Assembly (NCBI RefSeq): GCF_900078665.2
Contig: NZ_LT546207.1
Span: 5,288,926-5,321,739 of the forward strand
Direction: 5' to 3'
DNA from: Mycolicibacterium houstonense
GTDB taxonomy: Bacteria > Actinomycetota > Actinomycetes > Mycobacteriales > Mycobacteriaceae
DNA length: 32,814 bases
Shown: positions 11,628 to 32,814 of the stretch, piece by piece
Layout: every line of letters begins with the position of its first letter
Numbering within the stretch: position 1 is the stretch's first letter
Position numbers and translations under genes: made by a program
The notes under the pieces: model-generated
Databases searched by the model: none
What the model saw: only the letters and a program-made list of their open reading frames with translations
What the model was told of the DNA's origin: nothing

Positions 11628-11650
11628 CGATAACGATAACCATTTTCATT
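11628..11650. promoter_or_regulatory. Zur-type operator of the amine-lipid/Mce operon
   Basis: Core GATAACCATT followed by TTCATT, preceded by CGATAAC; it aligns with the two other sites in the window, the one at 1736-1758 being in front of zinc-independent ribosomal genes. It lies 35 bp before the first gene of the plus-strand operon and 87 bp before the Mce-associated gene on the minus strand. It is the only promoter-like gap before 21 tightly packed genes. It is somewhat less symmetric than site 1. Confidence 0.78.
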
Positions 11651-11685
11651 AGTGCCCGTATCTGGGGCCGCGGGGAGGGATTGGG

Positions 11686-12792
11686 ATGACCGCTGGAACG
11701 CCCGTCGGGATGGCCGGGACCGCCGCGGACACTCGACAGCCACGACTGAAAGACGGCGAGCACCAGCCGGGTTGGTTCGTCAGCCGCCGCGTCGACATCT
11801 ACTTCGTATTCGGTCTGGGTGCACTGCTGTCCGCGATCCTGTTCGCGGCGGAAAGCCACAAGGGCGTGTTTCTGGTTGGAGCGGTGGCGTTTTCGCTACT
11901 GTCCGACCTTCCGCACGTGCTGACCACGACGGTGCGGGTGTGGCTGGATCCCCGCGAGCGGGCCCGGTACCGGTTGCATTACGTGCTGAGCTTCGCCGTC
12001 GTCGCCACGATCGTCGGCGTGCTCTGGTTCGGTGGCTGGTTGGTGCCGCTGTTGGCGATCTGGGCGTACTGGCAGGTCTTCCACGTCCTCAAGCAGCACT
12101 TCGGCATCATGAACATCTACGCCGCCAAGAACGGGTACAAGGGCCCCCGGAACCGGCTCAAGTACGCGCTGTATGCCGCCTGCCTGGCCCCGGTTCTATA
12201 CCGGGCAAGCCACGGGCTGCACTTCTCCGAGTACGAGGTGTTCGGCCACCGGCTGCCGTTCTCGAACCTGAGTGTTCCGGTACCGCCGATACCCAACGCG
12301 CTCATCGTCATCGCCTACGCCGTCGCCGCCGTACTGGTTGCCATGGCGGTGGCCGAACAGATCAAGCTGCGCCGGGACGGGCAGACCCCGCTGCCCACGA
12401 TGGCAGTGGCCACCTTCATCATCGCGGTCCTGTCCTACAACCTGTCCTACCTGCTGGTGTCGGACCTGTTCGCGCTCATCCTGATCGCCACTACCACCCA
12501 CAGCCTGCAGTACCACCTGATCAACTGGACCAGGAACAACACCCGGTTCGCGGCCTCGACCGACCCGAGCGAGAAGAAGCTGCTGCTGGCCCGGCTCTCG
12601 ACGCGCAAGGCGCTTCCGTTCTACGTGGCCGGGCTGGCGTTGCTGGGCATTCTCGCCGGACAGTTGGACACCGTCATCTTCGCGGTGCCCCTGATGTTCG
12701 TCCTGCACCACTTCTACATGGACGGCGCGCTCTGGAAGAGCAAGGGCAACCCGGAATTGGCCTATGACCTGGGAATCGTTCGTGCCAAGTGA
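11686..12792 (+). CDS. Polytopic membrane protein with conserved-looking histidine clusters, possible membrane oxygenase
   Basis: I do not recognise this 368-residue protein. It has about eight hydrophobic spans and histidines grouped near membrane ends: H77 (PHVLTT), H133/H138 (HVLKQHFG), H272/H277 (HSLQYH) and H341/H342 (HHFYMDGALW). Such HxxxxH and HH sets are used by membrane di-iron desaturases and hydroxylases to hold iron, so an oxidative step on a lipid is plausible but unproven. The ATG at 11686 follows GGGAGGG. It is the first gene of the operon and sits 35 bp after the Zur-type operator. Alternatives: a heme-binding or metal-transport membrane protein. Confidence 0.7.
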   Translation: MTAGTPVGMAGTAADTRQPRLKDGEHQPGWFVSRRVDIYFVFGLGALLSAILFAAESHKGVFLVGAVAFSLLSDLPHVLTTTVRVWLDPRERARYRLHYVLSFAVVATIVGVLWFGGWLVPLLAIWAYWQVFHVLKQHFGIMNIYAAKNGYKGPRNRLKYALYAACLAPVLYRASHGLHFSEYEVFGHRLPFSNLSVPVPPIPNALIVIAYAVAAVLVAMAVAEQIKLRRDGQTPLPTMAVATFIIAVLSYNLSYLLVSDLFALILIATTTHSLQYHLINWTRNNTRFAASTDPSEKKLLLARLSTRKALPFYVAGLALLGILAGQLDTVIFAVPLMFVLHHFYMDGALWKSKGNPELAYDLGIVRAK

Positions 12793-13927
12793 TTTGAAGA
12801 CCTCGCTGGATGTCCGGGAGGTCACCTCGCCCGCGGAGGCGAGACGGTTCGTGGACCTGCCGTGGCATCTCTACCGTGGTGATGCCCGGTGGCGGCCGAT
12901 GCTCCGCCGGGTCATGCGGACGAAGATGGACGCGCGGAAGAATCCACTGCACCGTGAGGTCGAGGTCGCCAACTTCGTTGCGTACCAAGGTGAGCGACCG
13001 GTCGGCCGGATCTCGGCGAGCATCGACCACGAGTACGTCAAGCGGTACGGAGACTGCGGGTTCTTCGGGCACTTCGAGAGCACCGCGGACGACGACGTGG
13101 CGGGTGCCCTGCTGGAAACCGCGGAGAACTGGGCGCGCCGCCGCGGCATGGTCAAGATGGTCGGACCGTACAGCTATTCGACTCGTGAGGAGGTGGGGCT
13201 GCTCGCCGAGGGGTACGACACCCCGCCGACCCTCATGCAGCCGTACAACCCGCCGTACTATCTACGTCTCGTCGAGGCTGCGGGTTACCGCAAGAAGTTC
13301 GACAGTGCCTCCTACCGCTGGAACACCGGAGCGGCAAGTGCCGTGCAGCAGCGCCTCGTCAAACGTGCCGACGCGGTGCTCGAGGCCCAGGGCGCCACGG
13401 TGCGTCCCGTGCGAATGAAGAGTTTCGGCACCGAACTGGAAACCCTTCGGGTGCTTTACAACGACTCGTTCGGCCACCACCCGGAGAACGTCCCGCTGAG
13501 CAGGGCGGTGTTCGCCGGGATGGCCGCGGAGATGCGACCGTTGATCGATCCCCGCATCGTCAGGATCGTCGAGGCGGACGGCGCTCCGGTCGGGTTCCTC
13601 TTGATGCTGCCCGACGTGAACCAGATCGCCGGTCGGTCCGGCAGACTGACCCCCTCGACGTTGTTGCGCATCGCGGCCAAGCGCCACGGACGGATCCGCG
13701 GGGTCGACACCGCGGTCGTCGTTCTCATCGGCGCCGTCGAAACGCGGTTCGGGGCGGGTATCGGCCGGATCCTGGCCGGCGAGATCGTCAGGGCGAGCAC
13801 GGGCAGTGGCTATTCGTCGGTGGCGACCACCTGGGTACACGAGGACAATGTGTGGTCGAATTCCCTGGCCGCACAGATGAAGACGGAGCCCGATAAACGG
13901 CATCGCGTCTACCAGAAGGCACTGTGA
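12764..13927 (+). CDS. YghO-like GNAT-fold acyltransferase
   Basis: A 387-residue protein with the YghO-type pattern: WHLYRGDARWRPML near the N-terminus, then GRISASIDHEYVKRYGDCGFFGHFES, and KMVGPYSYSTREEVGLLAEGYDTPPTLMQPYNPPYY around residues 130-165, with a second GNAT-like half. YghO-like proteins often stand beside amino-lipid genes; bacterial ceramide synthase (bCerS) of Caulobacter is also a GNAT-fold N-acyltransferase. N-acylation of an amine is therefore a reasonable guess. It overlaps the preceding gene by 29 bp from the ATG at 12764; a GTG at 12782, with GGGAA upstream, is an equally good start. Confidence 0.75.
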   Translation: MTWESFVPSDLKTSLDVREVTSPAEARRFVDLPWHLYRGDARWRPMLRRVMRTKMDARKNPLHREVEVANFVAYQGERPVGRISASIDHEYVKRYGDCGFFGHFESTADDDVAGALLETAENWARRRGMVKMVGPYSYSTREEVGLLAEGYDTPPTLMQPYNPPYYLRLVEAAGYRKKFDSASYRWNTGAASAVQQRLVKRADAVLEAQGATVRPVRMKSFGTELETLRVLYNDSFGHHPENVPLSRAVFAGMAAEMRPLIDPRIVRIVEADGAPVGFLLMLPDVNQIAGRSGRLTPSTLLRIAAKRHGRIRGVDTAVVVLIGAVETRFGAGIGRILAGEIVRASTGSGYSSVATTWVHEDNVWSNSLAAQMKTEPDKRHRVYQKAL

Positions 13928-14907
13928 TGGCCGGTCGAATCCTGGTCACCGGGGGCGCCGGGTATCTGGGCAGTGCGCTCGTCGCCGAGCTGGTGGGCAA
14001 TGGCGAAGCGGTCACCGTGATGGCCGGACCCGACGACCGCACGGTCCAACCGGGGAGTTTGGGCGGTGGTGTCGAGGTGGTCTGCGCGGACGTCACCGAT
14101 GCGGCCGGCGTCGACGCGGCCATGCGTGGTATCTCGCACGTGTATCACCTGGCTGGCATCGCGTCTCCGAATTCACGGCTGGCTCACAGCATCTGGAACG
14201 CCAATGTCCTCGGCGCCTACCAGGTCGCCCACAGCGCACTGCGCCACGGCGTTCAGCGCATCGTCCATGTGTCGTCGACGGCCGCCATCGGCTATCCACC
14301 TGACGGAGTGGTGGCCGACGAACAGTTCGACATCGGGAATTCGGTGCTCGACAACGTCTACGCCGCCACCAAACGGGCCGGCGAACGCGTGGTGCTCGAC
14401 TTCGGTGAGCGCGGACTCGACGTCGTCGTGGTAAACCCCGCAGCGGTTTTCATACCGGCATCGGGTAGGCCGCGGTCCTGGCAGGGCTTGTTGGCGGCCG
14501 CGCGCCGCGGGATGTTGCGGGGTGTACCACCCGGCGGGACTGCGGTGTGCTCGGCCCGCGACTTCGTCGCCGGAACCACCGCCGCCATGGCCAAGGGCAG
14601 ATCCGGCGAGCGGTACATCCTCTCGAGCGCGAACCTGACCTATCGCCGGATCGCGGAATTGCTGGTGGAAGCCGTCGGCCGCAGCCACGGCGTCCGCACG
14701 CTGCCCATGGGTCTGTTCCGGGCCGCCGGAGCCGGCAACCGGGCCGTCCGCGACCTCTTCGGCAATCCCCGCCACGACGACGCGCTGGTGCCAGAGAACG
14801 TCGAATTGATGGCTCGCCACGTGTACTACGCATCCGGCAAGGCCGAGCGGGAGCTCGGGGTTCCGAGAATGTCCGCCGCCGAATTGATCACGGAGTTCGC
14901 TCGATGA
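13927..14907 (+). CDS. NAD(P)-dependent epimerase/dehydratase, extended SDR
   Basis: A 326-residue extended short-chain dehydrogenase. It begins MAGRILVTGGAGYLGSALV with the nucleotide-binding GGAGYLG at residues 9-15, has VYHLAGIASP, HVSSTAAIGYPP and the catalytic Y145-x3-K149 (VYAATK). The type is that of 3-beta-hydroxysteroid/dihydroflavonol-4-reductase-like enzymes, which often reduce or oxidise lipid keto/hydroxy groups rather than sugars. The ATG overlaps the previous stop (TGATG) and the stop overlaps the desaturase ATG. In bacterial sphingolipid clusters an SDR of this type (CerR) reduces the long-chain base. Substrate here unknown. Confidence 0.85.
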   Translation: MAGRILVTGGAGYLGSALVAELVGNGEAVTVMAGPDDRTVQPGSLGGGVEVVCADVTDAAGVDAAMRGISHVYHLAGIASPNSRLAHSIWNANVLGAYQVAHSALRHGVQRIVHVSSTAAIGYPPDGVVADEQFDIGNSVLDNVYAATKRAGERVVLDFGERGLDVVVVNPAAVFIPASGRPRSWQGLLAAARRGMLRGVPPGGTAVCSARDFVAGTTAAMAKGRSGERYILSSANLTYRRIAELLVEAVGRSHGVRTLPMGLFRAAGAGNRAVRDLFGNPRHDDALVPENVELMARHVYYASGKAERELGVPRMSAAELITEFAR

Positions 14908-15965
14908 CCACTGATATCCGCCAGGCAGCGGCCGGGCCGGGTTCCAAAGACGCACTCGGCATCTCGATGGCTCAGGCGCGGGCGCTGATCGCCGACCTGA
15001 GCGCGCGGCGCCAGTGGATCTATTGGGTTGACCTCGCCGTGTGCGTGGTGGTCGGCTACACCGCGTTCCTGTTGTGTCCGGCCGATCGTCTGCTCTCGCC
15101 GGTCGCCATCGGCTGCATGGCGATCGCCGCGCTGGCGTTCTACCGGGCAGTGTTGTTCGTCCATGAGATCGTCCATGCACCCGAAGAGTTGCGCTGGTTC
15201 TCGGTGGGGTGGCACGTGGTGTGCGGAATTCCTTTGCTGGTACCGCAGTTCACCTACGAGTTCCATCAGGATCATCACGGGTCGCGCACCTACGGCACCG
15301 CGGAGGACGGTGAGTACGTCCCCTACGCGACGGAACCGCGTTGGCGGGTGCTCGCGTTGCCGTTCACCGCGTTGCTCGGCCCGCTCGTCTTCGTGCTGAG
15401 GTTTCTCGTGTTGGCGCCGCTGAGCTGGTTGATCCCGGGCATCCGGTCGTACGTACTGACCCGGGCCTCGGCGCTGATGATCGACGCCGACTTCGTCCGC
15501 AGGCTTCCGGAGGGGCGCACCCCACGGTCTTGGCTGGTACAGGAATTCGCCTGCTTCGCCTACCTGGTGGTGATGCTGGCATTGCTGGCCGGCGGGGTGT
15601 ACTCCCCGAATCGTCTCGCTGAGGCGTACGTGATCGTCGCGGCGGTGCTGTTCGTCAACTGGGTGCGCGTGTTGGCCGCGCATCGCTACGAGAGCCGCAA
15701 CGAGCGGATGACGTTCCCAGAGCAGGTACTCGACTCCATCGACCACCCGTCGTTGCCGGTCATCGGAGAACTGTGGGCCCCGCTCGGGCTGCGCTACCAC
15801 GCGGTGCACCACCTGTTTCCGAAGCTGCCCTATCACCAACTCGGAAAGGCTCGCCGTCGCCTGGCCGAGGTGATTCCGCGCGACGGCGGCTTCTGGACTA
15901 CCGAGGATCGCTCACTGACCAGCTCTTTGAGACGGCTTCTCGCGCACCCACGGGAGGCTCGATGA
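14904..15965 (+). CDS. Membrane fatty acid desaturase/hydroxylase
   Basis: A 353-residue integral membrane protein with the three histidine boxes of the desaturase superfamily: H87-EIV-H91, H121-QD-H124-H125 and H299-AV-H302-H303. Hydrophobic spans lie at about residues 38-80, 150-185 and 205-250. It would introduce a double bond or hydroxyl into an acyl chain, using a di-iron centre and oxygen at the membrane. It starts at the ATGA overlap with the SDR gene; the longer upstream frame is only read-through of the SDR gene. It ends with a 4-bp overlap (ATGA) with the aminotransferase start. Confidence 0.9.
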   Translation: MTTDIRQAAAGPGSKDALGISMAQARALIADLSARRQWIYWVDLAVCVVVGYTAFLLCPADRLLSPVAIGCMAIAALAFYRAVLFVHEIVHAPEELRWFSVGWHVVCGIPLLVPQFTYEFHQDHHGSRTYGTAEDGEYVPYATEPRWRVLALPFTALLGPLVFVLRFLVLAPLSWLIPGIRSYVLTRASALMIDADFVRRLPEGRTPRSWLVQEFACFAYLVVMLALLAGGVYSPNRLAEAYVIVAAVLFVNWVRVLAAHRYESRNERMTFPEQVLDSIDHPSLPVIGELWAPLGLRYHAVHHLFPKLPYHQLGKARRRLAEVIPRDGGFWTTEDRSLTSSLRRLLAHPREAR

Positions 15966-17290
15966 TGCGGGATTCGTCCGCGGTGACCTACTCCCGGCGC
16001 CTGCCGATCCGGCCGATCGAGGCGGCCGGGGCTCGGCTACGCGACGCCGATGGCCGCTGGTACGTGGACTGTCTGGCCGCGGCCGGCGCGATGTCCCTGG
16101 GCTGGAATCACCCGGTTGTCCGCGAGGCGGTGATCAAGACTCTCGAATCGGGAGAACCGTGGCAGTCCCTGGACTTCCACACCCCGACCAGGGAACGATT
16201 CGTCGAGGATCTGTTGTCCATCCTGCCGCCGGGTCTGGCGCGCGAAGGCCGGGTGCATCTGTGCTCGCCGAGCGGTGCCAGCGCCGTCGAGGCGGCGCTG
16301 ACGCTTGCCGAGATCGCCACCGGCGGAAGCGAACACATCGGCGTGCAGGGCGGCTTCCACGGTTGTACCCGGGCCGCGCGGGCAGCCAGTTCCGGCGGCG
16401 GACTGCGCCGCCAACCAGTAGTGCTGGCGCCGCGGGTCACATTCCTGCCCTACCCCCAGGATTACCGCTGCCCGTTCGGGGTCGGGGGAGAACCCGGTGT
16501 TGACCTGGCGGTCGCCGCCACCGAGAACGTGGATCGCCCCCACTCCGGCGTCACCGCGCCGGCTTCGGTCCTGGCGGAGTTCGTGCTGGGGGAGGGGGGA
16601 GTCATCCCCGCGCCGTACCGGTGGGGCAAGGCGTTGCGGACCATGGCAAGCCGGCTCGATGTCCCGTTGATCGCCGACGAGGTGCAGGCGGGGATGTTCC
16701 GGACCGGGCCGGCCTGGGCGTTCCAGCGGTGTGACGTCGAGCCCGACATGATGGTGATCTCGAAGGGGCTGGGTTCCGGGCTGCCCATCGCGGTTCTGGT
16801 GATCCGGGAACGCTATGACGTGTGGGAGCCCGGGGCCTTCACGGGCACGTTCCGCGGCAATGCGATGGCCTTCGCCGCGGCCGGCGCGGTGATCCGCTTC
16901 GCCGTCGCGACAGATCTGTCGGCCCGCGTCCAGGCGACGGGTAGTGCCTTTCTCGACGGGCTCAAGTCGGTCGCCGCGCAATCCGAGGTCGTCGGTGACG
17001 TGCGGGGTGCCGGGCTGATGCTGGCCGCCGAGATCGTCGACCCCGCGGGCGCGCGCCACCACGACGTGCCCGCGCCCGACGCGGCACTGGCCGAGCGGAT
17101 CCAACGGGCCTGTCTTGCACACGGCCTCATCGTCGAAACCGGTGGGCAATATGGGAATGTGGTGCGCTTCCTGCCGCCGTTGACCATCGACGAGGTCGAC
17201 ATGTCGGCCGCGCTCACCGCCTTCGCCGCCGCGGTGCGGCAGGTAGAGCGGCAGCGGCCGGCGGACAGCGTGTTGCTGGGGGCGCGATGA
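15962..17290 (+). CDS. dat: Class III aminotransferase, probably L-2,4-diaminobutyrate:2-oxoglutarate aminotransferase
   Basis: A 442-residue PLP enzyme of fold type I. Visible are CLAAAGAMSLGWNHPVV, the phosphate-binding SGASAVEAAL, IADEVQAGMFRTGPAWAF and the PLP lysine K268 in ISKGLGSGLP. The combination DEVQ-x-G-x-x-RTG with SKGLGSGLP and the 440-residue length fit the Dat/EctB branch, which makes L-2,4-diaminobutyrate from aspartate semialdehyde and glutamate. The next gene, a matching decarboxylase, supports this. The ATG at 15962 follows GGGAGG. Alternative: another omega-amine aminotransferase. Confidence 0.85.
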   Translation: MMRDSSAVTYSRRLPIRPIEAAGARLRDADGRWYVDCLAAAGAMSLGWNHPVVREAVIKTLESGEPWQSLDFHTPTRERFVEDLLSILPPGLAREGRVHLCSPSGASAVEAALTLAEIATGGSEHIGVQGGFHGCTRAARAASSGGGLRRQPVVLAPRVTFLPYPQDYRCPFGVGGEPGVDLAVAATENVDRPHSGVTAPASVLAEFVLGEGGVIPAPYRWGKALRTMASRLDVPLIADEVQAGMFRTGPAWAFQRCDVEPDMMVISKGLGSGLPIAVLVIRERYDVWEPGAFTGTFRGNAMAFAAAGAVIRFAVATDLSARVQATGSAFLDGLKSVAAQSEVVGDVRGAGLMLAAEIVDPAGARHHDVPAPDAALAERIQRACLAHGLIVETGGQYGNVVRFLPPLTIDEVDMSAALTAFAAAVRQVERQRPADSVLLGAR

Positions 17291-18789
17291 CAATGGGCAC
17301 CGGTTCGTTCGCGGACGACTTTCTCACCCCGCGCGGACTCAGCGGATATCGCGAGGCGCTGACCCTGGCCGCCACCTGGGCCGGCACGGAGCTGGCCGAC
17401 CCGGCCCAACCGGGCGTGGTGGCAGGCTACGCCGAAATCGAAGCGACCGTCGGGAAGATCGCCCTCGACAACGTGGCGGGCATCGGGCTGCCCCAGGCAT
17501 TGGGCGAGGCGGTCGCCCTGTTGTCGGGACGGTCCGCGGTGGTGACCCACCCCGGCTATCTGGCCCACCTGCACTGCCCGCCGACGGTACCGTCGCTGGC
17601 CGCCGAGATCCTCGTCAGCGCGTTCAACCAGTCGCTGGACTCCTTCGATCAGGCCCCGGCGGCCACGGCGCTCGAGCAGAAGGTCATCGGCGACCTCTGC
17701 GCCACAATGGGTTACGGCGTCGGCGCCGACGGCACATTCACCAGTGGGGGAACGCAATCCAACCTGCAGGCACTGCTGATGGCCCGAGACCTGTTCGCCC
17801 GGGGCAGGTTTGGATCCGACCTGGCGGCCGGGCTGCCGGCCGAGGCCGGATCCTGGCGCGTGCTGTGTACCGGCCAGACGCATTTCTCGGTGCGGCAGGC
17901 GCTGCGGATCCTCGGGCTGTCGGGTGCGGTGGTCGAGGTGCCCACCGACGAGGCTGGACGGATGCGTATCGACGGGCTCATCCACTGTGTCGATCGTGCC
18001 GTCGAGACCGGCACACCGATCATGGCACTCGTACTCACCGCCGGGACGACGGACTTCGGCGCGATCGATCCGCTGCCGGAGGCGATCGCCATTGCCCGCG
18101 AGCACGGTATCTGGACCCATGTCGACGCCTGTGCAGGTGGCTGCCTGGCGTTCAGCGCCACCCATCGTGACCTCCTCGGTGGGATCGAGCAGGCCGACTC
18201 CATAGCCATCGACTTCCACAAGCTGTTGTTCCAGGCGATCAGCTGTAGCGCGCTGCTGGTGCGGCGGGGGGAATCCTTCGAGATACTGGCCGACCACGCC
18301 GATTACCTGAACCCGCTGCGGGATTCGGCCGAAGACGTGGTCAATCTGGTCGGAAAGTCACTGCAGACCACCCGTCGGTTCGACGCCCTCAAGGTGTTCG
18401 TGACGCTGCGGGCACTGGGTAGGCAGCGGGTGGGCGAGATGATCGACGCCACCTGTGCGGCGGCGGCTGCGGCCGCGTCCGCGGTGTCCGATCACTCACG
18501 TCTGGCACTGGTGGCCCCCGTCGCGACCAACACGGTGGTGGTGCGCTGGCGGCATCCGGACCTGTCCGACGCCGAATGCGACGACGTGAACCAGGAGATC
18601 CGGATCGCCCTCGCCGAGTCGGGCCGCGCAGTTCTCGGCCGGTCGACGGCGGGCGGCAGTCAGGCCCTCAAGCTCACGTTCGTCAACCCGCTGGTCAATC
18701 CCGAAGCGGCGGCCGACGTGATCGCCGCCATCGCCGCTGAGGGGCAACGGATCCTGCGGTCTCGCGGAAGGGAATTCACCAACGCATGA
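17287..18789 (+). CDS. ddc: Group II PLP decarboxylase, probably L-2,4-diaminobutyrate decarboxylase
   Basis: A 500-residue PLP-dependent decarboxylase. It shows TSGGTQSNLQALLMARD near residue 155, HVDACAGGCLAF near 278, and the PLP lysine K312 in IDFHKLLFQ. The replacement of the HxDAA/W and HKW of aromatic amino acid decarboxylases by DACAGG and FHKLLF is typical of diaminobutyrate decarboxylases. With the aminotransferase upstream (ATGA overlap) it would form the Dat-Ddc pathway to 1,3-diaminopropane, known from Acinetobacter and others. The product here is predicted, not shown. Confidence 0.86.
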   Translation: MTMGTGSFADDFLTPRGLSGYREALTLAATWAGTELADPAQPGVVAGYAEIEATVGKIALDNVAGIGLPQALGEAVALLSGRSAVVTHPGYLAHLHCPPTVPSLAAEILVSAFNQSLDSFDQAPAATALEQKVIGDLCATMGYGVGADGTFTSGGTQSNLQALLMARDLFARGRFGSDLAAGLPAEAGSWRVLCTGQTHFSVRQALRILGLSGAVVEVPTDEAGRMRIDGLIHCVDRAVETGTPIMALVLTAGTTDFGAIDPLPEAIAIAREHGIWTHVDACAGGCLAFSATHRDLLGGIEQADSIAIDFHKLLFQAISCSALLVRRGESFEILADHADYLNPLRDSAEDVVNLVGKSLQTTRRFDALKVFVTLRALGRQRVGEMIDATCAAAAAAASAVSDHSRLALVAPVATNTVVVRWRHPDLSDAECDDVNQEIRIALAESGRAVLGRSTAGGSQALKLTFVNPLVNPEAAADVIAAIAAEGQRILRSRGREFTNA

Positions 18790-19445
18790 ACACCAGAGCA
18801 CTGCGGGTCGACCGGGTCCGGCCCGACGATGAGCGGTTCGGCTGGGCGAAGGGTGTGGAATACCGCATTTTCGGCCTGGAGAACGATTACGCGAGCGAAT
18901 CGGACATCGCGGCCGGTGAAATGGTGCACTACCGGCCGTGGGAGCGGAGCTCGGAGATCTTCGTGGGGTTCAGCGAGGACTCGGACGAACCGGTCGGCGT
19001 CCTGCGGGCACTGCGGGCCGATACCGATCTCGGTCTGGACAGCTTCAGCACATTGCGCGACGGCCGCAGGTATGCGCCGGCAGGCGGGGTGCCGAGAAAC
19101 TTCCTGTATCCGGAGTGGAATTCGTTCTTCGACGACATCGCGCCTGAGCGCATCGCCGAGCTCGCCACCCAGGGCGTGCGCAAGAAACACCGGCGCGTGG
19201 GCATGATCGAGCAGATCTGGCAGGTGTTCTTCGGAAGCTTGGCTGCCGACGGCGTCGACTACGTGACCGTGGCGCTCGTGGTCCCGCTGTTCGAGTGGTA
19301 CAGCCAGCTGTTGTCGACGCGGATCCACCAGATCGGTGAGGTCATGCCGGACTACATCGGGGCCGACAGCGTGCCGGCCGTGGTCGACATCAGCGGGTCC
19401 TTCATCGCCGATGCCACCAGAACCCTTCTACCGTCCAGCAATTAG
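18786..19445 (+). CDS. N-acyltransferase of the FeeM/LuxI-like GNAT group
   Basis: A 219-residue GNAT-like protein. WAKGVEYRIFGLENDYASESD, then EIFVGFSEDSDEPVGVLRALRAD (beta-4/5), and GVRKKHRRVGMIEQIWQVFFGSLAADGVDYVTVALVVP follow the N-acyl amino acid synthase/autoinducer synthase layout. Members transfer an acyl group from acyl-ACP to an amine. The operon also supplies an ACP, an acyl-AMP ligase and a predicted diamine, so N-acyl-1,3-diaminopropane is a plausible product. The ATG overlaps the decarboxylase stop. Acceptor specificity cannot be read from the sequence. Confidence 0.72.
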   Translation: MNTRALRVDRVRPDDERFGWAKGVEYRIFGLENDYASESDIAAGEMVHYRPWERSSEIFVGFSEDSDEPVGVLRALRADTDLGLDSFSTLRDGRRYAPAGGVPRNFLYPEWNSFFDDIAPERIAELATQGVRKKHRRVGMIEQIWQVFFGSLAADGVDYVTVALVVPLFEWYSQLLSTRIHQIGEVMPDYIGADSVPAVVDISGSFIADATRTLLPSSN

Positions 19446-25177: not shown

Positions 25178-25990
25178 ATGACCGAGCCCGTGATGACGCG
25201 ACCGGTGGCACGCTTCGGCCATTTCGTCGCCTTCTCGGCGCATGCCCTTGCCGGTGCTCCGCTGGCCATGAGCCGGTATCGCAGAGAGTTCCTCAGGCTG
25301 GTATCCGACATCACCTGGGGCAACGGATCGATCGTGGTCGGCGGTGGCACGGCCGGGGTGATCCTCGTCCTCGGAATCACCACCGGCGCCCTGATCGCGG
25401 TCGAAGGGTACGACTTCCTGAACCTGCTCGGCCTCGGCCCGGCGACCGGGATCGTCTCGTCGCTGGTCACCACTCGTGAGCTGGCCCCGATCATGGCGGC
25501 TCTGGCGTTCGCGGTACAGGCGGGCTGCCGCTTCACCACCCAGATCGGCTCGATGCGGATCTCCGAAGAGATCGACGCGATGAATTCGCTTGCCATCAGG
25601 CCGATCCCGTACCTCATCACCACCCGCCTGCTGGCGTCGGTGGTCGCGATCGTTCCCCTGTACGCGGCGTGCCTCGGCATCTGCTATCTGTCCTGCCAGT
25701 TCATGGTGGGTTTCATCAGCGGCGGATCGCTCGGCCCTTACCTGCACTACTTCACATTGCTGATCAGCGGCCCCGACATCGTGTACTCGATGGTCAAGGC
25801 CGTGGTGTTCGTCTGGATCGCGGCAACGGTGCAGTGCTACTACGGATTCTGCGCGGGCGGTGGCCCGGAGGGCGTGGGTGTCGCCGCGGGGCACGCCATG
25901 CGGGCCAGCATAACCGTGGTGATCATCGCCAACATGCTGCTGACCATGGCGCTGTGGAGCGTGGACTCCGGTGCAAGGCTGGGAGGTTGA
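25178..25990 (+). CDS. yrbEB: YrbEB, MlaE-type permease of the Mce system
   Basis: A 270-residue MlaE-family permease with GVILVLGITTGALIAVEGYD, ELAPIMAALAFAVQAGCRFTTQIGSMRISEEIDAMNSLAIRPIPYLITTR (the complete EEIDAM motif) and C-terminal membrane spans. The ATG at 25178 lies one base after the yrbEA stop; an in-frame ATG six codons on (25193) is a possible alternative. It partners YrbEA. Confidence 0.95.
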   Translation: MTEPVMTRPVARFGHFVAFSAHALAGAPLAMSRYRREFLRLVSDITWGNGSIVVGGGTAGVILVLGITTGALIAVEGYDFLNLLGLGPATGIVSSLVTTRELAPIMAALAFAVQAGCRFTTQIGSMRISEEIDAMNSLAIRPIPYLITTRLLASVVAIVPLYAACLGICYLSCQFMVGFISGGSLGPYLHYFTLLISGPDIVYSMVKAVVFVWIAATVQCYYGFCAGGGPEGVGVAAGHAMRASITVVIIANMLLTMALWSVDSGARLGG

Positions 25991-25992: not shown

Positions 25993-27390
25993 GTGGCGAG
26001 CATGGTCGATCTGGACGGGAACCACCTCACCGGCAGGCAGTTGATCCGGCGCGGTGCGGCGGCGCTCGTCGTCGTGGGTGTGGTGGCGTCGGTCTTGCTG
26101 GTGAAATCGACCGGCTGGTTCGACCGCGGCCTGCACGTGGTCGCCGAACTGCGCAACATCGGCGACGGCCTACCGGCCCGGTCGGATGTAAAGTTCCGCG
26201 GCGTCCTCGTCGGCGCGGTGGAAAGTGTCACGCCCGGAACCGGCGGTCAGCCCAGTCAGGTCCACCTCCGGCTGAATTCGGCCTATGCGCAGGGCATTCC
26301 GGCGAGTGTGGCGGCCCGGGTGGTGCCCAGTAACGCCTTCGCGGTGTCGTCGTTGCAGTTGGTCGAGTCGGAGAACGGCTCGGCCGACCCGATCCGCGAC
26401 GGCGGGCGGATCACCGAGGACACGACCCTGCCGACGGTACTGTTCCAGACCACCCTCACCAAGCTGCGCGACATTCTCGCGGCGGCGGGTCGCGGACGCG
26501 GTGACCACACCGACGGCGTGCTGGCGGCCGTCGCGGCGGCCACCAACAACCGTCGCGGGAAACTGCTGACGTCGGCGGCCGAACTCGATCGGATCATCGA
26601 CGACCTGAACGCCGTCGTCGCGACCGATGAAGGGCCGTCGACGATCTCGGCGCTGTCTGAAGCCGCGCGCGGACTGTCGGCAACGGCGCCCGACCTCGTC
26701 TCGGCGTTGCATGAGGCGGTCGGGCCGATGCGAACCCTGGTCGAGCAACGCCGAAGCCTCGACGATTTCCTGTCGGCGGCCGCACGCACCACCGGAACCA
26801 GTGCGGAGGCACTCGACAATCAGACCGACCGGCTGGTCCATATCACCACCGACCTGACCCCGGTGCTCGGTGTCCTGGCCCAGAACGCCCAGCACTTCGT
26901 GCCGATCAGCCAGCGGATGGCCAGGTTCTCCGACACCTTCTTCGCCGAGGTCTGGGACTCCGAGCTCGACACCGCGCGTGGACGCGTGAATCTCTCGTTC
27001 ACGCCGTCGTACACCTATACCCGCGCCGACTGCCCGCGATACGGAGCGTTGGCGGGGCCGAGCTGCTTCACCGCACCCGAGGTGCCCGTGCGGGCCGACC
27101 TACCCGAAGTCCTGATGCCGCAGAACTATCAGCCGCCGCCGGATCTGGCGCCCCCGCCGGGCACCGCCATCGGGGAGAACGGAAACCTGGTCGCGGTGGG
27201 GCCGCCACTGCTGGCACCCGCCTCGTTCGGCGGCAATGTCGGCCCGGTCGGCAGCAGCCAGGAGCGTGACCGGTTGGCCGAGATCACCGGAGAGTCCGTG
27301 ACGGTGGCCACACAACTGATTCTCGGTCCCGTCGCGCGCGGCACCGTCGTCACGCGAACACCGCTGCCCGCAACCGAACCCAAGCCGTAG
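25993..27390 (+). CDS. mceA: MceA-family lipid-transport subunit
   Basis: A 465-residue protein with one N-terminal membrane anchor (about residues 22-38), the MCE domain (VVAELRNIGDGLPARSDVKFRGVLVGAVESV, about residues 45-125), a long helical region and a proline-rich tail (YQPPPDLAPPPGTA). I chose the GTG at 25993, six bases after GGGAGG; the ATG at 26002 would shorten it by three residues, and the longer upstream frame reads through yrbEB. MceA-F assemble as a heterohexameric tube that carries lipids across the periplasm. Confidence 0.93.
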   Translation: MASMVDLDGNHLTGRQLIRRGAAALVVVGVVASVLLVKSTGWFDRGLHVVAELRNIGDGLPARSDVKFRGVLVGAVESVTPGTGGQPSQVHLRLNSAYAQGIPASVAARVVPSNAFAVSSLQLVESENGSADPIRDGGRITEDTTLPTVLFQTTLTKLRDILAAAGRGRGDHTDGVLAAVAAATNNRRGKLLTSAAELDRIIDDLNAVVATDEGPSTISALSEAARGLSATAPDLVSALHEAVGPMRTLVEQRRSLDDFLSAAARTTGTSAEALDNQTDRLVHITTDLTPVLGVLAQNAQHFVPISQRMARFSDTFFAEVWDSELDTARGRVNLSFTPSYTYTRADCPRYGALAGPSCFTAPEVPVRADLPEVLMPQNYQPPPDLAPPPGTAIGENGNLVAVGPPLLAPASFGGNVGPVGSSQERDRLAEITGESVTVATQLILGPVARGTVVTRTPLPATEPKP

Positions 27391-27400: not shown

Positions 27401-28486
27401 ATGTCCAGATCTGCCCTGGGGGCCGACTCGATGCGACGCCGCGGCCCGCTGCTCGGGCTGTGCCTGTTCCTGGTGGTGTCGACCGTGCTGACGTGGCTGG
27501 TCTATGTCACGCTTCGGCGCGACGTCAGCGGGCCGGTCGGGTCCTACTCCGCGGTGTTCACCGATGTATTCGGATTGCGCGAGGGCGACGACGTCCGCGT
27601 GGCCGGGGTCAGGGTCGGCCGCGTACAGGCGGTCGAATTGCAGGGCACGCTGGCAAAGGTGTCGTTCGTCGTGCAGGAGGGCCACCGCCTCACCACTGCC
27701 ACCGTCGCATCGGTCAACTACCAAAACATCGTGGGACAACGATATCTCGCGTTGGACCGCGGTCGCGAAGGTCCGGCTTCCGAACTTCCGGCCGGGGCGG
27801 TGATCGGGACGGATCGCACCGAGCCGTCCTTCGACATCGGCACCCTGCTCAACGGTTATGAGCCGCTGTTCACCGTCTTGGATTCCGAGCAGGTGAACAA
27901 CCTCACCAATGCGGTCGTCGGATCTCTGCAGGGAGACAGCGCCGCCATCACCCTGCTGGTCGACCAGACATCGGTTCTCACCGAGACTTTCGTGGGCCAG
28001 GACCGCTCCTTGGACCGGATCATCGCCGGGTTGGACGGCGTGGTCGGCAATCTGGCCGGTCAGAACGACCATTTCGAGCGCACGCTCACGGCCGCCCGAA
28101 ACACCGTGGCGGCCTTCGACAATCGCCGCGAACCGCTGGTGTCGTCCCTGGGCACGATGACGGCGGTCGCCGGCAATCTGTCGCGGATCGCGCAAGACGT
28201 GCAACCGACCATCAGGGGCATGCTCAACCGTGAGCCCGGCTACACCCGCCACATGCTCGAGATCGAACCGCAGATCGCCTACACGGGGCTCAACACACCG
28301 CTGCTGTTGAAGGGGTTGTCGCGCGTGTTCGGGGAAGGGGCCTACATGAATGCCTACGCGTGTGACGTCAACGCCTACGGGTTCTTCCCCGGGCTCAATG
28401 ACGTGGTGCCGATCATCGTCGATGCGGCGACGCCCGGTGGTACTGCCAAGCACACCCCCAAGTGCAGGAGCATGGCCAATGGCTGA
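27401..28486 (+). CDS. mceB: MceB-family lipid-transport subunit
   Basis: A 361-residue protein with a membrane anchor (residues 17-37), the MCE domain (YSAVFTDVFGLREGDDVRVAGVRVGRVQAVEL, then VNYQNIVGQRYLAL) and a helical C-terminal domain rich in QD/L repeats. It ends with ACDVNAYGFFPGLNDVVP and CRSMANG, the cysteine pair usual in MceB. The start is 10 bp after mceA. Confidence 0.94.
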   Translation: MSRSALGADSMRRRGPLLGLCLFLVVSTVLTWLVYVTLRRDVSGPVGSYSAVFTDVFGLREGDDVRVAGVRVGRVQAVELQGTLAKVSFVVQEGHRLTTATVASVNYQNIVGQRYLALDRGREGPASELPAGAVIGTDRTEPSFDIGTLLNGYEPLFTVLDSEQVNNLTNAVVGSLQGDSAAITLLVDQTSVLTETFVGQDRSLDRIIAGLDGVVGNLAGQNDHFERTLTAARNTVAAFDNRREPLVSSLGTMTAVAGNLSRIAQDVQPTIRGMLNREPGYTRHMLEIEPQIAYTGLNTPLLLKGLSRVFGEGAYMNAYACDVNAYGFFPGLNDVVPIIVDAATPGGTAKHTPKCRSMANG

Positions 28487-29489
28487 CCTGATACCGAGGA
28501 AGGCTTGGCTCGGACTGCTGGCCGTGCTGACGGTCGGAGGCCTGATCGCCGGGATGCTCCTCGTCAAGGAGGCCGGCATCGGATATCACCGTTTCACCGC
28601 GAAATTCCTCCAGGCCGCGGCGTTGCGCGCCGACGACATCGTGGCGGTCGCGGGCATCCCGGTGGGAACGGTCACCGCCGTTCGTCTCGCCGGGGACCAC
28701 GTCGAGGCCGATATCCGGGTGCGCGACGACGTGCCGGTGGGCCGCGACACCCGCGCCGCGATCAAGGTGACGACACTCTTCGGCTCCCGTTATCTCGACC
28801 TTCGCCCGGGCGGCGACGGGGTGCCCGACAACGGAACCATCGACCTGGCCCACACCGAGGTGCCCTACGATCTGCAAGCCGCCCTTGCTGATTCGACCAG
28901 AACCTTCGAACAGGTCGACGCGAACCGCATCGCCACGTCACTCGATGTGCTGAGCCGGCAGCTGCACGGACTCCCCGCCGTGGTGCCCCAGGCGATGGTC
29001 AACGTGCGCGCGCTCTCGTCGGTGATCGCACAACGACGCGACCAGCTGGGCAATCTGTTGGTCAACACCGAGCACGTCACCAGCATGCTGCGGCGCCAGC
29101 AGTCCGAGATCGGCAACTTCATCCGCCAAGGACAGGAATTGGTGGGGGAATTCGTGGCGCGCTCGGCTGCGTTCCACGCGCTGATGCAGTCCCTGCGGTC
29201 GGTGGTGAGCTCGCTGCACACCATCGCCGTGCACGACCGGGACGCACTCGACGACGTACTTGCCACCATGGAGCAGCTGAGCGGGAAGTTCGCCGAGCAG
29301 GATGCGCTGTTCCGGAACCTGTTGCAGATCGCGCCCGTTCCGATCCGTCAGATCGCGAATGCCACCGGTTCCGGCAACGCGATCGAGACCAACGCCCCGG
29401 CAGGCGCCCTGATCGATTCCTGGATGTGCGCCATCAGCGGCCGAGCCGAACAGTTCGGGATGATTCCGTATCTGAAGGACTGCAAATGA
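28479..29489 (+). CDS. mceC: MceC-family lipid-transport subunit
   Basis: A 336-residue protein: membrane anchor (residues 8-28), MCE domain (HRFTAKFLQAAALRADDIVAVAGIPVGTVTAVRL, TTLFGSRYLDLRP) and a helical needle region. It ends without the long proline-rich tail seen in several MceC proteins. The ATG at 28479 overlaps mceB by 8 bp. The stop overlaps the mceD ATG. Confidence 0.93.
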   Translation: MADLIPRKAWLGLLAVLTVGGLIAGMLLVKEAGIGYHRFTAKFLQAAALRADDIVAVAGIPVGTVTAVRLAGDHVEADIRVRDDVPVGRDTRAAIKVTTLFGSRYLDLRPGGDGVPDNGTIDLAHTEVPYDLQAALADSTRTFEQVDANRIATSLDVLSRQLHGLPAVVPQAMVNVRALSSVIAQRRDQLGNLLVNTEHVTSMLRRQQSEIGNFIRQGQELVGEFVARSAAFHALMQSLRSVVSSLHTIAVHDRDALDDVLATMEQLSGKFAEQDALFRNLLQIAPVPIRQIANATGSGNAIETNAPAGALIDSWMCAISGRAEQFGMIPYLKDCK

Positions 29490-30601
29490 TCGGCCGGCAC
29501 AAGCGCCTGATGATTGCCGGCGCGCTGATTGCCGTGTTGGCGGTGGTCGCCGGTGTGGGGCGGCACGTGATCACCCATCGCGACCGCAGCATCACCGTCA
29601 CCGCGCAGTTCGACAGTGCGGCGGGACTGTACGTCGGAAATGTGGTGGCAGTACTGGGGGTTCCGGTGGGCCAGGTCACCAGAGTGACACCGAAGGCCAG
29701 TTATGCCGAAGTGGACTTCAGCGTCGACGAGGCTGTCGCGATACCGGCGGACGTCGAGGCGGTGACCTTGTCCACCTCGATCCTCACGGACCGCCAGATC
29801 GAGCTGTCGCCGCCGTACCGCGGGGGACCGACTCTGCGCAACGGCGACACCATCGGACTACATCGCACCAAGACCCCGGTCGAGTTCGACCGGGTGCTCG
29901 GGATGCTCGACAAGCTGGCGACGTCGCTGCGGGGCGACGGGGCAGGGGGTGGACCCGTGGCCGACCTGCAGAACGCGGGCGACGGTGTGGTCTCCGGGCA
30001 CGGTGAGCAGATCAGGGGTGCCCTCGACGAACTGTCGCGGGCACTGCGGTTGAGTTCCGACGGCGGCACCCGCACCCGGCAACAGGTGACCACGATCATC
30101 ACCAACCTCGGGTCGCTGCTGGATGCGGCGGCGGGCAATGACGCGAAACTGCGCGAATTCGGTTCCACGGTGCGCCAACTCAGCCAGATCCTGGCCGCCG
30201 AGGACTTCGGGTCGGGGACCACCGGCAGGCAACTCAACGAGGTGGTCGAGAAGACCGGACAGATCCTCTCGGCAAACCGGGATCTGATCAAACAGGGAAT
30301 CGCCAACGGCGACACCAGCATGCAGACCCTGCACGACCGCCAGCGTGAGCTTGCGGAGTTCTTCGACGTGCTTCCGCTGATGGCCGACAACCTCTATAAC
30401 GCGATCGATCAGCGAAACGGTGCGATCCGCGCACATTTCCTGGCCGACCGCATGGTGTTCGACGGCCAGATGGCCAAGGAGGTCTGCAACATGATGGGTC
30501 TGCGCCAACTCGGGTGCAGCACCGGCACGCTACAGGATTACGGGCCGGACTTCGGGCTGACGAACATGCTCGACGGTCTTGCGGCGATGGGCCAGAAATG
30601 A
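29486..30601 (+). CDS. mceD: MceD-family lipid-transport subunit
   Basis: A 371-residue protein: membrane anchor (residues 8-28), MCE domain (ITVTAQFDSAAGLYVGNVVAVLGVPVGQVTRV; LSTSILTDRQIELSPPY) and helical C-terminal part ending MLDGLAAMGQK. The ATG at 29486 overlaps the mceC stop and its stop overlaps the mceE ATG, both by four bases. Confidence 0.93.
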   Translation: MIGRHKRLMIAGALIAVLAVVAGVGRHVITHRDRSITVTAQFDSAAGLYVGNVVAVLGVPVGQVTRVTPKASYAEVDFSVDEAVAIPADVEAVTLSTSILTDRQIELSPPYRGGPTLRNGDTIGLHRTKTPVEFDRVLGMLDKLATSLRGDGAGGGPVADLQNAGDGVVSGHGEQIRGALDELSRALRLSSDGGTRTRQQVTTIITNLGSLLDAAAGNDAKLREFGSTVRQLSQILAAEDFGSGTTGRQLNEVVEKTGQILSANRDLIKQGIANGDTSMQTLHDRQRELAEFFDVLPLMADNLYNAIDQRNGAIRAHFLADRMVFDGQMAKEVCNMMGLRQLGCSTGTLQDYGPDFGLTNMLDGLAAMGQK

Positions 30602-31722
30602 CTGCCGCACAAGCACACCTGCGCCGGTTGCTGGGACTGTTGTCGGCAACCCTGCTGACCGCGGGGTGTGCCACGAACGGTCTGGCCGATCTGCCGTTGC
30701 CCGCGCCGGGGCTCGGGTCGGGCGGTTACCGGCTGACCGCGGTGTTCGCCAATGCGCTCAATCTGCCCGAGCATGCCAAGGTCAAGCTCGGCGGCGCCGA
30801 CATCGGTCAGGTCGAGGCCATGACCGCCCACGATTTCACCGCGGTCACCACGCTGCGCATCAGTGACGACGTCCGACTCCCGGTGGGGAGCACAGCCGAA
30901 CTCCGTTCGGCCACACCGCTGGGTGATGTGTTCGTCTCGATCGTTCCGCCCCGCACTGCCCAGGCGGGGACGCGTTCGCTCGGAGAGGGTGACCGCATCG
31001 GGCTCGACTCCACCACGGCGGCGGCGACGGTCGAGTCGGTGCTGAGTTCGGCGGCGGTCCTCGTCAACGGCGGTGCCGTCCACAACCTGACCAACATCGT
31101 CAACGGCATGGGTAAGGCGGCCGGACCGGACGGCCGGGCCTTCGGTGACCTGGTGGCCAAGTCCAACCGACTGCTCGGCACGGTGAATGCCCGCTCGGCA
31201 CAACTTGATTCCGCGATGACCGAGACTACCCGGCTGGCCGAGCTGTTGGAGGCCAAGAATCAAGAGGTCGGTGAACTCCTGCGGGCGGCAGCGCCGGCCA
31301 CCGAGACACTGGCCGACAACACCGGCCGGGTGACCGATCTCGTCCTCACGCTCGGTGACGTATCGCAGAACCTGGCCAAGTTCCCGTCCATCGCCGGAAC
31401 GGATTCCAGCGGCCGCAGCGTCATCGCGGATGCGGACACGATCGCGAGCGCGTTCAACGACGTCGTGGTGGACCCGCAGACCAGCCTGGTCTCGCTGAAC
31501 CGGCTGTACGCGCCGTTCATCAAGATGACGGCGGGCACGTCGATGGCAGGCGCGGCCGGGATCGACCGGCTGGTCCTCGGATCCATTCCCGATGCCGGAT
31601 TCTCGGGGGATCCCGGGCTGCACGGTCCGAAGCGGGCGGACTGGCACCAGTTCGTGGGATCGATCAAGTTCGTGCTCTGGCGGTTGCAGGAGCGTGTAGT
31701 CGGCAGAGGACCACAACCGTGA
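30598..31722 (+). CDS. mceE: MceE-family lipoprotein subunit (LprK-like)
   Basis: A 374-residue protein. A lipobox, LLTAGC, ends the signal peptide at about C24, so this subunit is lipidated as usual for MceE. The MCE domain follows (YRLTAVFANALNLPEHAKVKLGGADIGQVEAM; LRSATPLGDVFVSIVPP), then a long helical domain and a C-terminal segment (RADWHQFVGSIKFVLWRL). The ATG at 30598 overlaps mceD by 4 bp. Confidence 0.94.
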   Translation: MTAAQAHLRRLLGLLSATLLTAGCATNGLADLPLPAPGLGSGGYRLTAVFANALNLPEHAKVKLGGADIGQVEAMTAHDFTAVTTLRISDDVRLPVGSTAELRSATPLGDVFVSIVPPRTAQAGTRSLGEGDRIGLDSTTAAATVESVLSSAAVLVNGGAVHNLTNIVNGMGKAAGPDGRAFGDLVAKSNRLLGTVNARSAQLDSAMTETTRLAELLEAKNQEVGELLRAAAPATETLADNTGRVTDLVLTLGDVSQNLAKFPSIAGTDSSGRSVIADADTIASAFNDVVVDPQTSLVSLNRLYAPFIKMTAGTSMAGAAGIDRLVLGSIPDAGFSGDPGLHGPKRADWHQFVGSIKFVLWRLQERVVGRGPQP

Positions 31723-32814
31723 GCGGGTCCCCGCGCAGTGCCTGGGTCGCGCTGGCCGCGTTGGCGCTCACCCTGGTGGTGTCGGTCGCCTACCTGATGG
31801 CCGGTGTGCTGCACGTCCGGCCGTTGTCGGCGACCTACCTCGTGACGGTGCAGCTTTCGCAATCCGGCGGGTTGCTGCCCAATCAGGATGTGACCATGCG
31901 TGGAGTGCGGGTGGGCAAAGTCGAGCGGCTCGCGTTCACGCCGCGAGGCGTCGAGGCCGTGCTACGTGTGTCGGATGACGTGCGTATTCCGGCGTCCAGT
32001 TCGGTGCGGGTCTCGGCGCTGTCGGCGGCAGGCGAACAGTACGTCGACTTCACCGCGTCGTCCGAGGGCGGGCCGTATCTGGCCGACGGCGACGTGATCG
32101 CGGACGACCGCACCGCCGTGCCGGTGCCGATGGCCGAGCTGCTGGCCAATGCCGACGGCGTGCTGGCACAGGTGGATCCGCAGAAGATCGAGCGGGTCAA
32201 GGCCGAACTGAGCCTGACGGGTGCCGGGCCGGACAAGCTCGCCGCGATCGTGGACGGCGGGACGTTCCTGCTGTCGACGCTGGATTCGGTGCTACCCGAA
32301 ACCGTGAGCATCATCCGCAGCAGCCGGATCGTGTTGTCCTCGGCGGTGGATGTCAACAACGGAATCGCCCAGACGGCAACCAATCTGCGTCATACGTTGG
32401 CGGGCATGGCCGGGATGCAGGATGGTTACCGAGCGCTACTCGGCCGATCCCCGGCGACGCTCGGCGCGATCGACGATCTGTTCACCGACAACTCCGACAC
32501 CATGGTGCAGTTGCTGGGAAATCTGGCGACGGTAGCGCGGCTGTCCTACGTCCGGGTGCCTGCCCTCGATGCGCTCTTCCCCGACTACCGCGGTTCGGCG
32601 CTGGAGGCCTTCATCGGCACGATGCACGAACACGGATTGTGGGTGACCGCCGACATCTATCCGCGGTACGCCTGCGATTACGGCACGACCCGGCGCCCAC
32701 CGTCGGCCGCGGACTATCCCGAGCCGTTCCTGTACACGTACTGCCACGATGACGATCCGAGCCTGCTGGTGCGTGGCGCCCGCAACGCGCCTCGGCCGGC
32801 CGGCGACGACACCG
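31719..32814 (+). CDS. mceF: MceF-family lipid-transport subunit, 3' end outside window
   Basis: The visible 365 codons begin at a GTG overlapping the mceE stop. They show a membrane anchor (residues 8-30, VALAALALTLVVSVAYLMAGV), the MCE domain (YLVTVQLSQSGGLLPNQDVTMRGVRVGKVERL; VSALSAAGEQYVDF) and the helical region with NNGIAQTATNLRHTLAGMAG, followed by CDYGTTRRPPSAADYPEPFLYTYC near the edge. No stop is reached, so length and any genes after it are unknown. The complete set A-F confirms a full Mce system. Confidence 0.93.
   Translation, partial: MSGSPRSAWVALAALALTLVVSVAYLMAGVLHVRPLSATYLVTVQLSQSGGLLPNQDVTMRGVRVGKVERLAFTPRGVEAVLRVSDDVRIPASSSVRVSALSAAGEQYVDFTASSEGGPYLADGDVIADDRTAVPVPMAELLANADGVLAQVDPQKIERVKAELSLTGAGPDKLAAIVDGGTFLLSTLDSVLPETVSIIRSSRIVLSSAVDVNNGIAQTATNLRHTLAGMAGMQDGYRALLGRSPATLGAIDDLFTDNSDTMVQLLGNLATVARLSYVRVPALDALFPDYRGSALEAFIGTMHEHGLWVTADIYPRYACDYGTTRRPPSAADYPEPFLYTYCHDDDPSLLVRGARNAPRPAGDDT

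Follow-up and report, generated by a model that had tools for sequence, protein, structure and literature searches.

A zinc-linked operon joining a predicted acyl-diamine lipid pathway to an Mce transporter in Mycolicibacterium houstonense

For most Mce transporters we know of no cargo, and a locus of Mycolicibacterium houstonense raises the question of what such a transporter may carry when its genes lie in one run with those of a predicted lipid pathway. The window (the whole stretch of 32,814 nt analysed here, C1:5288926-5321739 of a 6.45-Mb genome) holds, from 11686 to its end, 21 plus-strand genes arranged head-to-tail with gaps of at most 12 nt, 20 of which are complete, with mceF extending past the window end. 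By family content they encode a GNAT protein, a short-chain dehydrogenase/reductase (SDR), a fatty acid desaturase (FA_desaturase), Dat-like and Ddc-like enzymes, a DrrA/DrrB-like pair, an acyl carrier protein (ACP), an AMP-binding ligase, the permeases YrbEA and YrbEB (MlaE) and MceA-F (MlaD). These 21 genes behind a predicted Zur operator are likely one zinc-starvation operon. The operon is real, well conserved and zinc-linked, and it has previously been noticed in M. abscessus, where MAB_1680-MAB_1701 was described in 2022 as a 'Zur-regulated Mce operon' for 'putative Zn-siderophore biosynthesis and transport' (PMC8951752); an earlier note on this DNA, made from the sequence alone, was thus wrong in knowing of no described Mce operon of this composition. 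Among open-licence papers, judged by title and abstract start, no description of the product of the operon was found. As far as the literature was searched, what is new here comprises the variation in transport modules, the modelling of gene 7 as a LuxI/FeeM-type fold, a divergent Mce-associated gene and the two zinc neighbourhoods in which the operon occurs.

Zinc control of the operon

The earlier note had placed 21 same-strand genes behind a single Zur-type operator with a largest gap of about 12 bp, which the gene run and the box bear out. It had also described the genes as mostly overlapping by 1-4 bp, which is mostly right, but two larger overlaps (29 nt and 8 nt) are present as well (spacings from gene 1 to gene 21, in nt: -29, -4, -4, -4, -4, -4, 12, -4, 7, -4, 7, -4, -4, 1, 11, 10, -8, -4, -4, -4). 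The Zur box ends 34 nt ahead of the ATG of gene 1 at 11686, and the consensus applied is the one used for M. abscessus (PMC8951752).

Relatives of the operon were identified by scanning contigs with 20 proteins of the family of gene 7 (a predicted N-acyl synthase), which gave 14 loci; the scan used short conserved words and others may be missed, and two genomes (G561 and G598) are known by a gene-7 search match only and two more (G050 and G088) by short loci only. A box with at most one mismatch lies no more than about 300 nt ahead of gene 1 in 16/16 related loci (the 14 gene-7 loci and two of Nocardia), compared with 5/892 control tiles taken from the same loci, excluding tiles less than 1 kb from gene 1. 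A looser control at two mismatches gave 41/840 windows and 7/280 shuffles. The occurrence of a Zur-like box upstream of gene 1 in related loci exceeds chance. In two loci (L016 and L019), further sites occur as close pairs ahead of gene 1, the arrangement expected of real boxes that belong to a neighbouring gene.

Across the genome, a scan with our own pattern (slightly different from the published one and partly built on the box of this operon, whose own match is not counted) gave 26 match rows at up to three mismatches, which merge by overlap into 13 sites, and the reversed pattern gave 0 matches across the whole genome. Seven of the 13 sites cluster within 36 kb around the operon, and three of the six outside this island match the published consensus perfectly. 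A perfect-consensus box lies about 0.36 kb before the zur gene of the genome itself (at C1:1901514; 68% match to Mycobacteroides-type Zur). Perfect boxes were also observed beside a PPE gene (C1:2174.6-2175.3k, L007) and, far from the zinc island, at C1:4728.67k (L005). M. abscessus too has a zinc-linked PPE gene with a zur box, MAB_0809c (PMC8951752).

All 22 genes of the M. abscessus operon are reported to shift together, with a zur box ahead of MAB_1680 (PMC8951752). On a zinc-carrying compound, the log2 change at 3 h was -9.76 for the first gene and -5.82 for the last (largest -10.30), and that at 24 h was -8.14 and -3.61, respectively; this fall along the genes fits one transcript, the reported response being a zinc-linked change of expression only (PMC8951752). 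MAB_1680 has also been inferred to be a Zur target (PMC6734328), and MAB_1693-1699 are up in biofilms (PMC8586431). Homologues of smtB and zur adjoin the operon in 6/6 Mycobacteroides-type loci (L021-L026; FUR and ArsR domains confirmed in L021), and none was found beside it in the other eight loci. Considering the box, the zinc island described below, the adjoining smtB-zur genes and the co-change of the 22 M. abscessus genes, the zinc control of the operon that the earlier note had proposed is well supported.

A constant pathway and its changing transport modules

Genes 1-13 are collinear in 14/14 loci as far as visible (mycobacteria, Segniliparus and Nocardia), except that gene 9 was undetected in L028 and that L029 stops before gene 13. 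The yrbE-mce genes come next after gene 13 in 12/13 loci in which this position can be seen, and likewise in two additional genomes of Nocardia. At the same place, Segniliparus rugosus has a PE and a PPE gene (PF00934 E 1.4e-17, PF00823 E 2e-59). Orthology of this PPE with the Zur-boxed PPE of M. houstonense was not shown, the Zur-boxed protein (62% over 176 aa) being third by E-value among eight matches. The operon is rare: gene 7 occurs in 5/148 genomes of the genus, 6/401 of the family, 5/128 of the genus Nocardia and 1/396 of the phylum, the genus, family and phylum sets including our own genome and one of the six family matches not being the operon. With regard to the conservation of the whole block, which the earlier note had raised as a check, the order of genes 1-13 is thus kept, whereas the transport part differs by lineage and the occurrence is patchy.

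The transport part of the operon is a full actinobacterial mce set in the order yrbEA, yrbEB, mceA-F (two MlaE and six MlaD proteins). It shares this order with the lipid importers Mce1 and Mce4, and its MceA matches 8fed ('Virulence factor Mce family protein'), but its YrbEB falls in a separate clade. This clade unites the 11 pathway-linked mycobacterial YrbEB sequences (support 100/98) and is placed next to additional Mce operons from the same genomes, and the three pathway-linked YrbEB sequences of Nocardia form a separate clade (100/99) in a different region of the tree. A single clade for all 14 was rejected by the approximately unbiased test (p-AU 0.000108), which was framed after the first tree had been seen. 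That tree had 37 rows and carried a long-branch warning; in a second tree four rows (SEN_1134k, SEN_187k, NOC_C34 and OWN_4039k) were removed and two Nocardia rows added, and both trees place the pathway-linked YrbEB of Nocardia outside the mycobacterial clade. Of the 11 named mycobacterial loci, eight were used for these trees, with the M. senegalense row taken from G476 and L022 and L024 omitted. In the single Nocardia genome that was searched, the YrbEB nearer to the mycobacterial sequences (65%) is encoded in a complete mce operon of its own, some 23 kb away from the pathway; this operon has neither pathway genes nor a box with fewer than two mismatches. The core pathway therefore appears constant, and its Mce module appears to have been gained on two occasions or exchanged on one, an argument for selection on the transport of something that belongs to the pathway. 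The link between pathway and Mce is strengthened by the presence of two separate Mce lineages beside the pathway.

The enzyme assignments of the earlier note (Dat, Ddc, FAAL-ACP and a FeeM-like acyltransferase, FAAL denoting fatty acyl-AMP ligase) stand, although Dat and Ddc score under the NCBIfam cut-offs. The best families of gene 5, scanned on the longer open reading frame (ORF) 15773-17290, are Dat families (470 bits against a cut-off of 671 and 365 against 402), and its best PDB match is a diaminobutyrate transaminase (6rl5). Gene 6 is best placed in the RhbB family (367 bits, cut-off 900), and its nearest solved relatives are a decarboxylase of the desferrioxamine pathway and then a diaminobutyrate decarboxylase (5o5c, E 1.7e-99, and 2qma, E 4e-90). 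A PDB sequence search with gene 7 gave no match, and a fold search was therefore used; its predicted structure has the LuxI/FeeM N-acyl synthase fold. Pfam matches across the gene-7 family are weak (at most 3/20 members per GNAT family), and among named proteins those nearest to gene 7 come from Mycolicibacterium and Mycobacterium (88-91% identity). The family that gene 13 matches above cut-off, NF005850, carries a CoA ligase name; its MbtM score is 328 bits (cut-off 621), and 7/18 of its PDB matches, the top ones not among them, are named FAAL or FadD23/28/32.

For several other genes the evidence is less specific. At E 0.001, no Pfam model matched genes 1, 7, 8 and 9. Across 39 aligned homologues, gene 1 has nine invariant residues (D74, H77, H133, H138, D260, H272, H277, H342 and D346); its model has a predicted local distance difference test score (pLDDT) of 89.4, and a fold search with it gave no match of weight. 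A PDB sequence search with gene 2 gave no match, and the sequence of gene 4 shows three histidine boxes. Gene 8 is present in 14/14 named loci. The lipobox cysteine of gene 9 is invariant in 11/11 members, none of which matched Pfam even at E 5, and the gene was undetected in two Nocardia clusters. A relative of gene 7 (47%) was also observed next to a distant acyl ligase in another genome (L036, G407), with no other operon gene within 20 kb, and this pair is possibly another N-acyl amine pathway.

Features of the window and the zinc island

Table 1. Genes of the operon, its Zur box and the divergent gene (positions in the window).
Feature	Position	Strand	Basis
Mce-associated (Mas/Mam-type) protein gene	10959..11615	-	divergent from operon across shared Zur box
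Zur box	11631..11651		0 mismatches to TRWYGRNAAYSRTNNNCRWYW, both strands; consensus from PMC8951752
Gene 1: multi-helix membrane protein, candidate membrane metalloenzyme	11686..12792	+	invariant residues, model
Gene 2: GNAT-type acyltransferase	12764..13927	+	PF00583, 24.8 bits, cut-off 20.7
Gene 3: SDR (3beta-HSD/epimerase type)	13924..14907	+	PF01370, PF01073
Gene 4: membrane fatty acid desaturase/hydroxylase family	14904..15965	+	PF00487 (scanned on 14892-15965)
Gene 5: diaminobutyrate--2-oxoglutarate aminotransferase-like (Dat)	15962..17290	+	NF005393 E 5e-141, TIGR00709 E 5e-109, both below cut-off
Gene 6: pyridoxal phosphate (PLP) decarboxylase, diaminobutyrate decarboxylase-like (Ddc)	17287..18789	+	NF052646 E 1e-109, below cut-off
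Gene 7: N-acyl synthase, predicted LuxI/FeeM-type fold	18786..19445	+	predicted structure
Gene 8: small conserved protein, possibly SRPBCC-like	19458..19964	+	weak match to YndB, E 0.016
Gene 9: putative secreted lipoprotein	19961..20713	+	lipobox-like N-terminus
Gene 10: DrrA-like ABC ATPase	20721..21668	+	PF00005; TIGR01188 E 1e-69, below cut-off
Gene 11: DrrB-like ABC-2 permease	21665..22435	+	PF12698; TIGR00025 E 9e-9, below cut-off
Gene 12: acyl carrier protein	22443..22718	+	PF00550
Gene 13: fatty acyl-AMP/ACP ligase (FAAL-type)	22715..24343	+	NF005850 above cut-off; NF004510 MbtM E 5e-98, below cut-off
Gene 14: YrbEA permease	24340..25176	+	PF02405
Gene 15: YrbEB permease	25178..25990	+	PF02405; trees
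Gene 16: MceA	26002..27390	+	PF02470, PF11887 on longer ORF 25669-27390; PDB 8fed E 4.5e-6
Gene 17: MceB	27401..28486	+	PF02470, PF11887
Gene 18: MceC	28479..29489	+	PF02470, PF11887 on longer ORF 28350-29489
Gene 19: MceD	29486..30601	+	PF02470 on longer ORF 29426-30601
Gene 20: MceE	30598..31722	+	PF02470, PF11887 on longer ORF 30514-31722
Gene 21: MceF	31719..32814, beyond window end	+	PF02470, PF11887 on L003:2645-3736

The divergent Mce-associated gene is a part that the earlier note missed; it lies outside the interval considered there. Its start codon is uncertain (an alternative ATG lies near 11540), and it has no Pfam or NCBIfam match; it shows 64% identity over 154 aa to the gene just 3' of mceF in the sister mce operon and 28% to the gene 3' of mceF in Nocardia. 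Divergent homologues are present in 5/14 named loci (L016-L020), with none in the other nine. Mce-linked genes of this kind are termed Mas in PMC1810536. At the other end of the operon, a single N is present in the genome two bases past the window end (L003:3742), which makes the 3' end of mceF uncertain; this N is followed by sequence that does not resemble the relatives and by another Zur-like box, and is possibly an assembly fault.

The window left of the operon encodes a CobW protein, ribosomal proteins L28, S14 and S18, an ArsP-type permease, a DUF1490 protein with a His-rich tail and a heavy-metal P-type ATPase. A Zur-like box (8107-8127, one mismatch) lies between the permease gene (minus strand) and the DUF1490 and ATPase genes (plus strand; 8148-10582). 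A periplasmic binding protein gene, in ORF 2824-3891 (PF01497), has the zinc-linked ribosomal protein genes on one side and the operon on the other, and a cobalamin riboswitch (RF00174, 2764-2885, 45.2 bits, gathering threshold 31.5) was observed ahead of it. Zinc importer genes follow a few kb downstream of the window end, where AztD (449 bits, cut-off 400), a distant AztD relative, CobW, ZnuA, an ABC-3 permease and several boxes are found.

A zinc island of this kind is known from M. smegmatis, in which the zinc- and Zur-dependent cluster MSMEG_6045-MSMEG_6071 likewise combines ZnuABC, CobW, a P-type ATPase and alternative ribosomal protein genes (PMC7174638). The word mce is absent from the main text of that paper, and the 21-gene operon is extra here; considering the likeness of the two, the operon seems to have been added to a zinc island of an otherwise known type. 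According to the published gene listing, MAB_1680-1701 is alike in order (hypothetical protein, SDR, desaturase, Dat, decarboxylase, DrrA, ligase, YrbE, Mce), but it lies near zur (MAB_1678c, PMC6734328), whereas the operon described here lies within the ribosomal-protein/ZnuA island. In a Mycobacteroides-type relative (L041), a PF10118 metal-dependent hydrolase gene was observed directly 3' of mceF (L041:6694-7593), at the place of MAB_1701; in M. houstonense, the Mce-associated gene is instead divergent and ahead of the operon.

Possible roles of the product

Several known pathways resemble parts of the operon. In mycobactin lipid loading (MbtM-type ligase and ACP), an ACP gene likewise lies directly upstream of a fatty acyl ligase gene. 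Two loci of this type are present in the same genome, their ligases scoring above the MbtM cut-off and their ACPs sharing 36% and 41% identity with gene 12; the operon differs in its ligase score below that cut-off, a predicted diamine as amine source and no match to a non-ribosomal peptide synthetase (NRPS). Isonitrile lipopeptides and kupyaphores of mycobacteria are lipidic metal carriers made with an ACP and a FAAL, which is their likeness to the operon, and isonitrile lipopeptide clusters contain an NRPS and an isonitrile-forming Fe/2OG oxygenase. No Pfam match to NRPS or isonitrile-forming dioxygenase families was found among the 21 genes at E 0.001. NRPS-independent siderophores (NIS) of the hydroxamate type use an IucA/IucC synthetase and an amine N-hydroxylase, and these families also had no Pfam match among the 21 genes. 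The Dat-Ddc pathway of rhizobactin (RhbA/RhbB) likewise has a neighbouring aminotransferase and decarboxylase, to whose respective families the two enzymes of the operon are best assigned, but in the operon both score below cut-off, a NIS synthetase or N-hydroxylase is not matched and acylation would be of LuxI/FeeM type.

We put at slightly below an even chance the reading that genes 1-13 synthesise an N-acylated 1,3-diaminopropane lipid and export it to serve as a zinc carrier, and that the last eight genes form an Mce complex returning it. In this pathway, Dat and Ddc would convert aspartate semialdehyde to 2,4-diaminobutyrate and then to 1,3-diaminopropane, and the FAAL would place a free fatty acid onto the ACP. 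The desaturase, the SDR and the membrane protein of gene 1 may alter the acyl chain or the amine, the enzyme of gene 7 would acylate one amine, and the GNAT protein would possibly add a second group to the other. DrrAB would act as the lipid exporter; lipoprotein 9 and the Mce complex, aided by the divergent Mce-associated protein, would bring the zinc-loaded lipid back through the envelope, and the adjoining ZnuABC/AztD-type system would move zinc into the cell. The step to a zinc carrier is inferred from the zinc neighbours, the presence of an export and a likely import module, the replacement by PE-PPE in Segniliparus and the likeness to mycobactin lipid loading; PE-PPE pairs act in metal-carrier uptake in mycobacteria. 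A wider and more tentative proposal, which we hold possible but rather doubtful, is that such acyl-diamine lipids are zinc-fetching metallophores of a new metal-acquisition class, returned by a dedicated Mce complex, with Mce and PE-PPE as interchangeable gates. The latter idea comes from the occurrence of the same 13-gene pathway next to two Mce lineages and, in Segniliparus, next to a PE-PPE pair.

Several observations weigh against a returned zinc carrier. A hydroxamate, catechol or isonitrile metal-binding group is not readable from the enzymes of the operon, and the direction of Mce transport is putative. The diamine could differ, as Dat and Ddc lie below curated cut-offs and the nearest solved relative of Ddc comes from the desferrioxamine pathway. 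In a cluster of the genus Nocardia (L082, genome G541), moreover, Ddc is absent between Dat and gene 7, and the best Ddc match in that genome (40%) is about 1.6 Mb from the cluster; diaminopropane need thus not be universal, and diaminobutyrate itself may be the substrate in this variant. For gene 7, general GNATs lead the Foldseek ranking (BjaI is 13th, LasI 15th and FeeM 23rd), and structure-comparison Z gaps below 1 are to be read as ties. The closest Mce paralogue in the same genome (YrbEB 71%) has neither pathway genes nor a box with fewer than two mismatches in 20 kb, suggesting that transporters of this Mce lineage also function where the pathway is absent. Two YrbEB genes lie elsewhere in the Segniliparus genome, so that the lack of an adjacent Mce does not make it Mce-free.

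Mce might instead feed the pathway, importing fatty acids of external or matrix-lipid origin for direct use by the FAAL, with the acyl-diamine exported by DrrAB and not being the Mce cargo. FAALs act on free fatty acids and mycobacterial Mce1 is a fatty acid importer, and two Mce lineages beside the pathway are compatible with such a role; however, it leaves unexplained the PE-PPE pair at the Mce place in Segniliparus and lipoprotein 9, and the cell's own synthesis can also supply fatty acids. We regard this role as unlikely. An acylated diamine may also be retained in the envelope under low zinc, replacing a zinc-dependent function, with Mce and DrrAB placing and recycling it. DrrAB-type exporters handle envelope lipids, Zur regulons include replacements as well as scavengers, and ribosomal protein genes adjoin the operon. 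In M. abscessus, the operon is in addition up in biofilms (PMC8586431, PMC8951752). This explanation appears improbable to us: a patchy occurrence (5/148 genomes of the genus) is more in keeping with a secondary metabolite than with general repair of the envelope, and the operon adjoins a zinc importer. That the gene 7 product is a diffusible N-acyl amine, a LuxI-like signal of low zinc or density, is very improbable indeed: no receptor or regulator family was matched among the 21 genes, and two transporters and a lipoprotein exceed the needs of a small signal.

Whichever role applies, one operon joins an Mce complex to enzymes that probably make or use its cargo, with zinc starvation as the inducible signal, and the cargo and direction of an Mce transporter thereby become directly testable, in a pairing seen with two Mce lineages. 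If the product binds zinc, a non-peptide lipid metallophore would be added to the zinc nutrition of mycobacteria, opportunistic species included.

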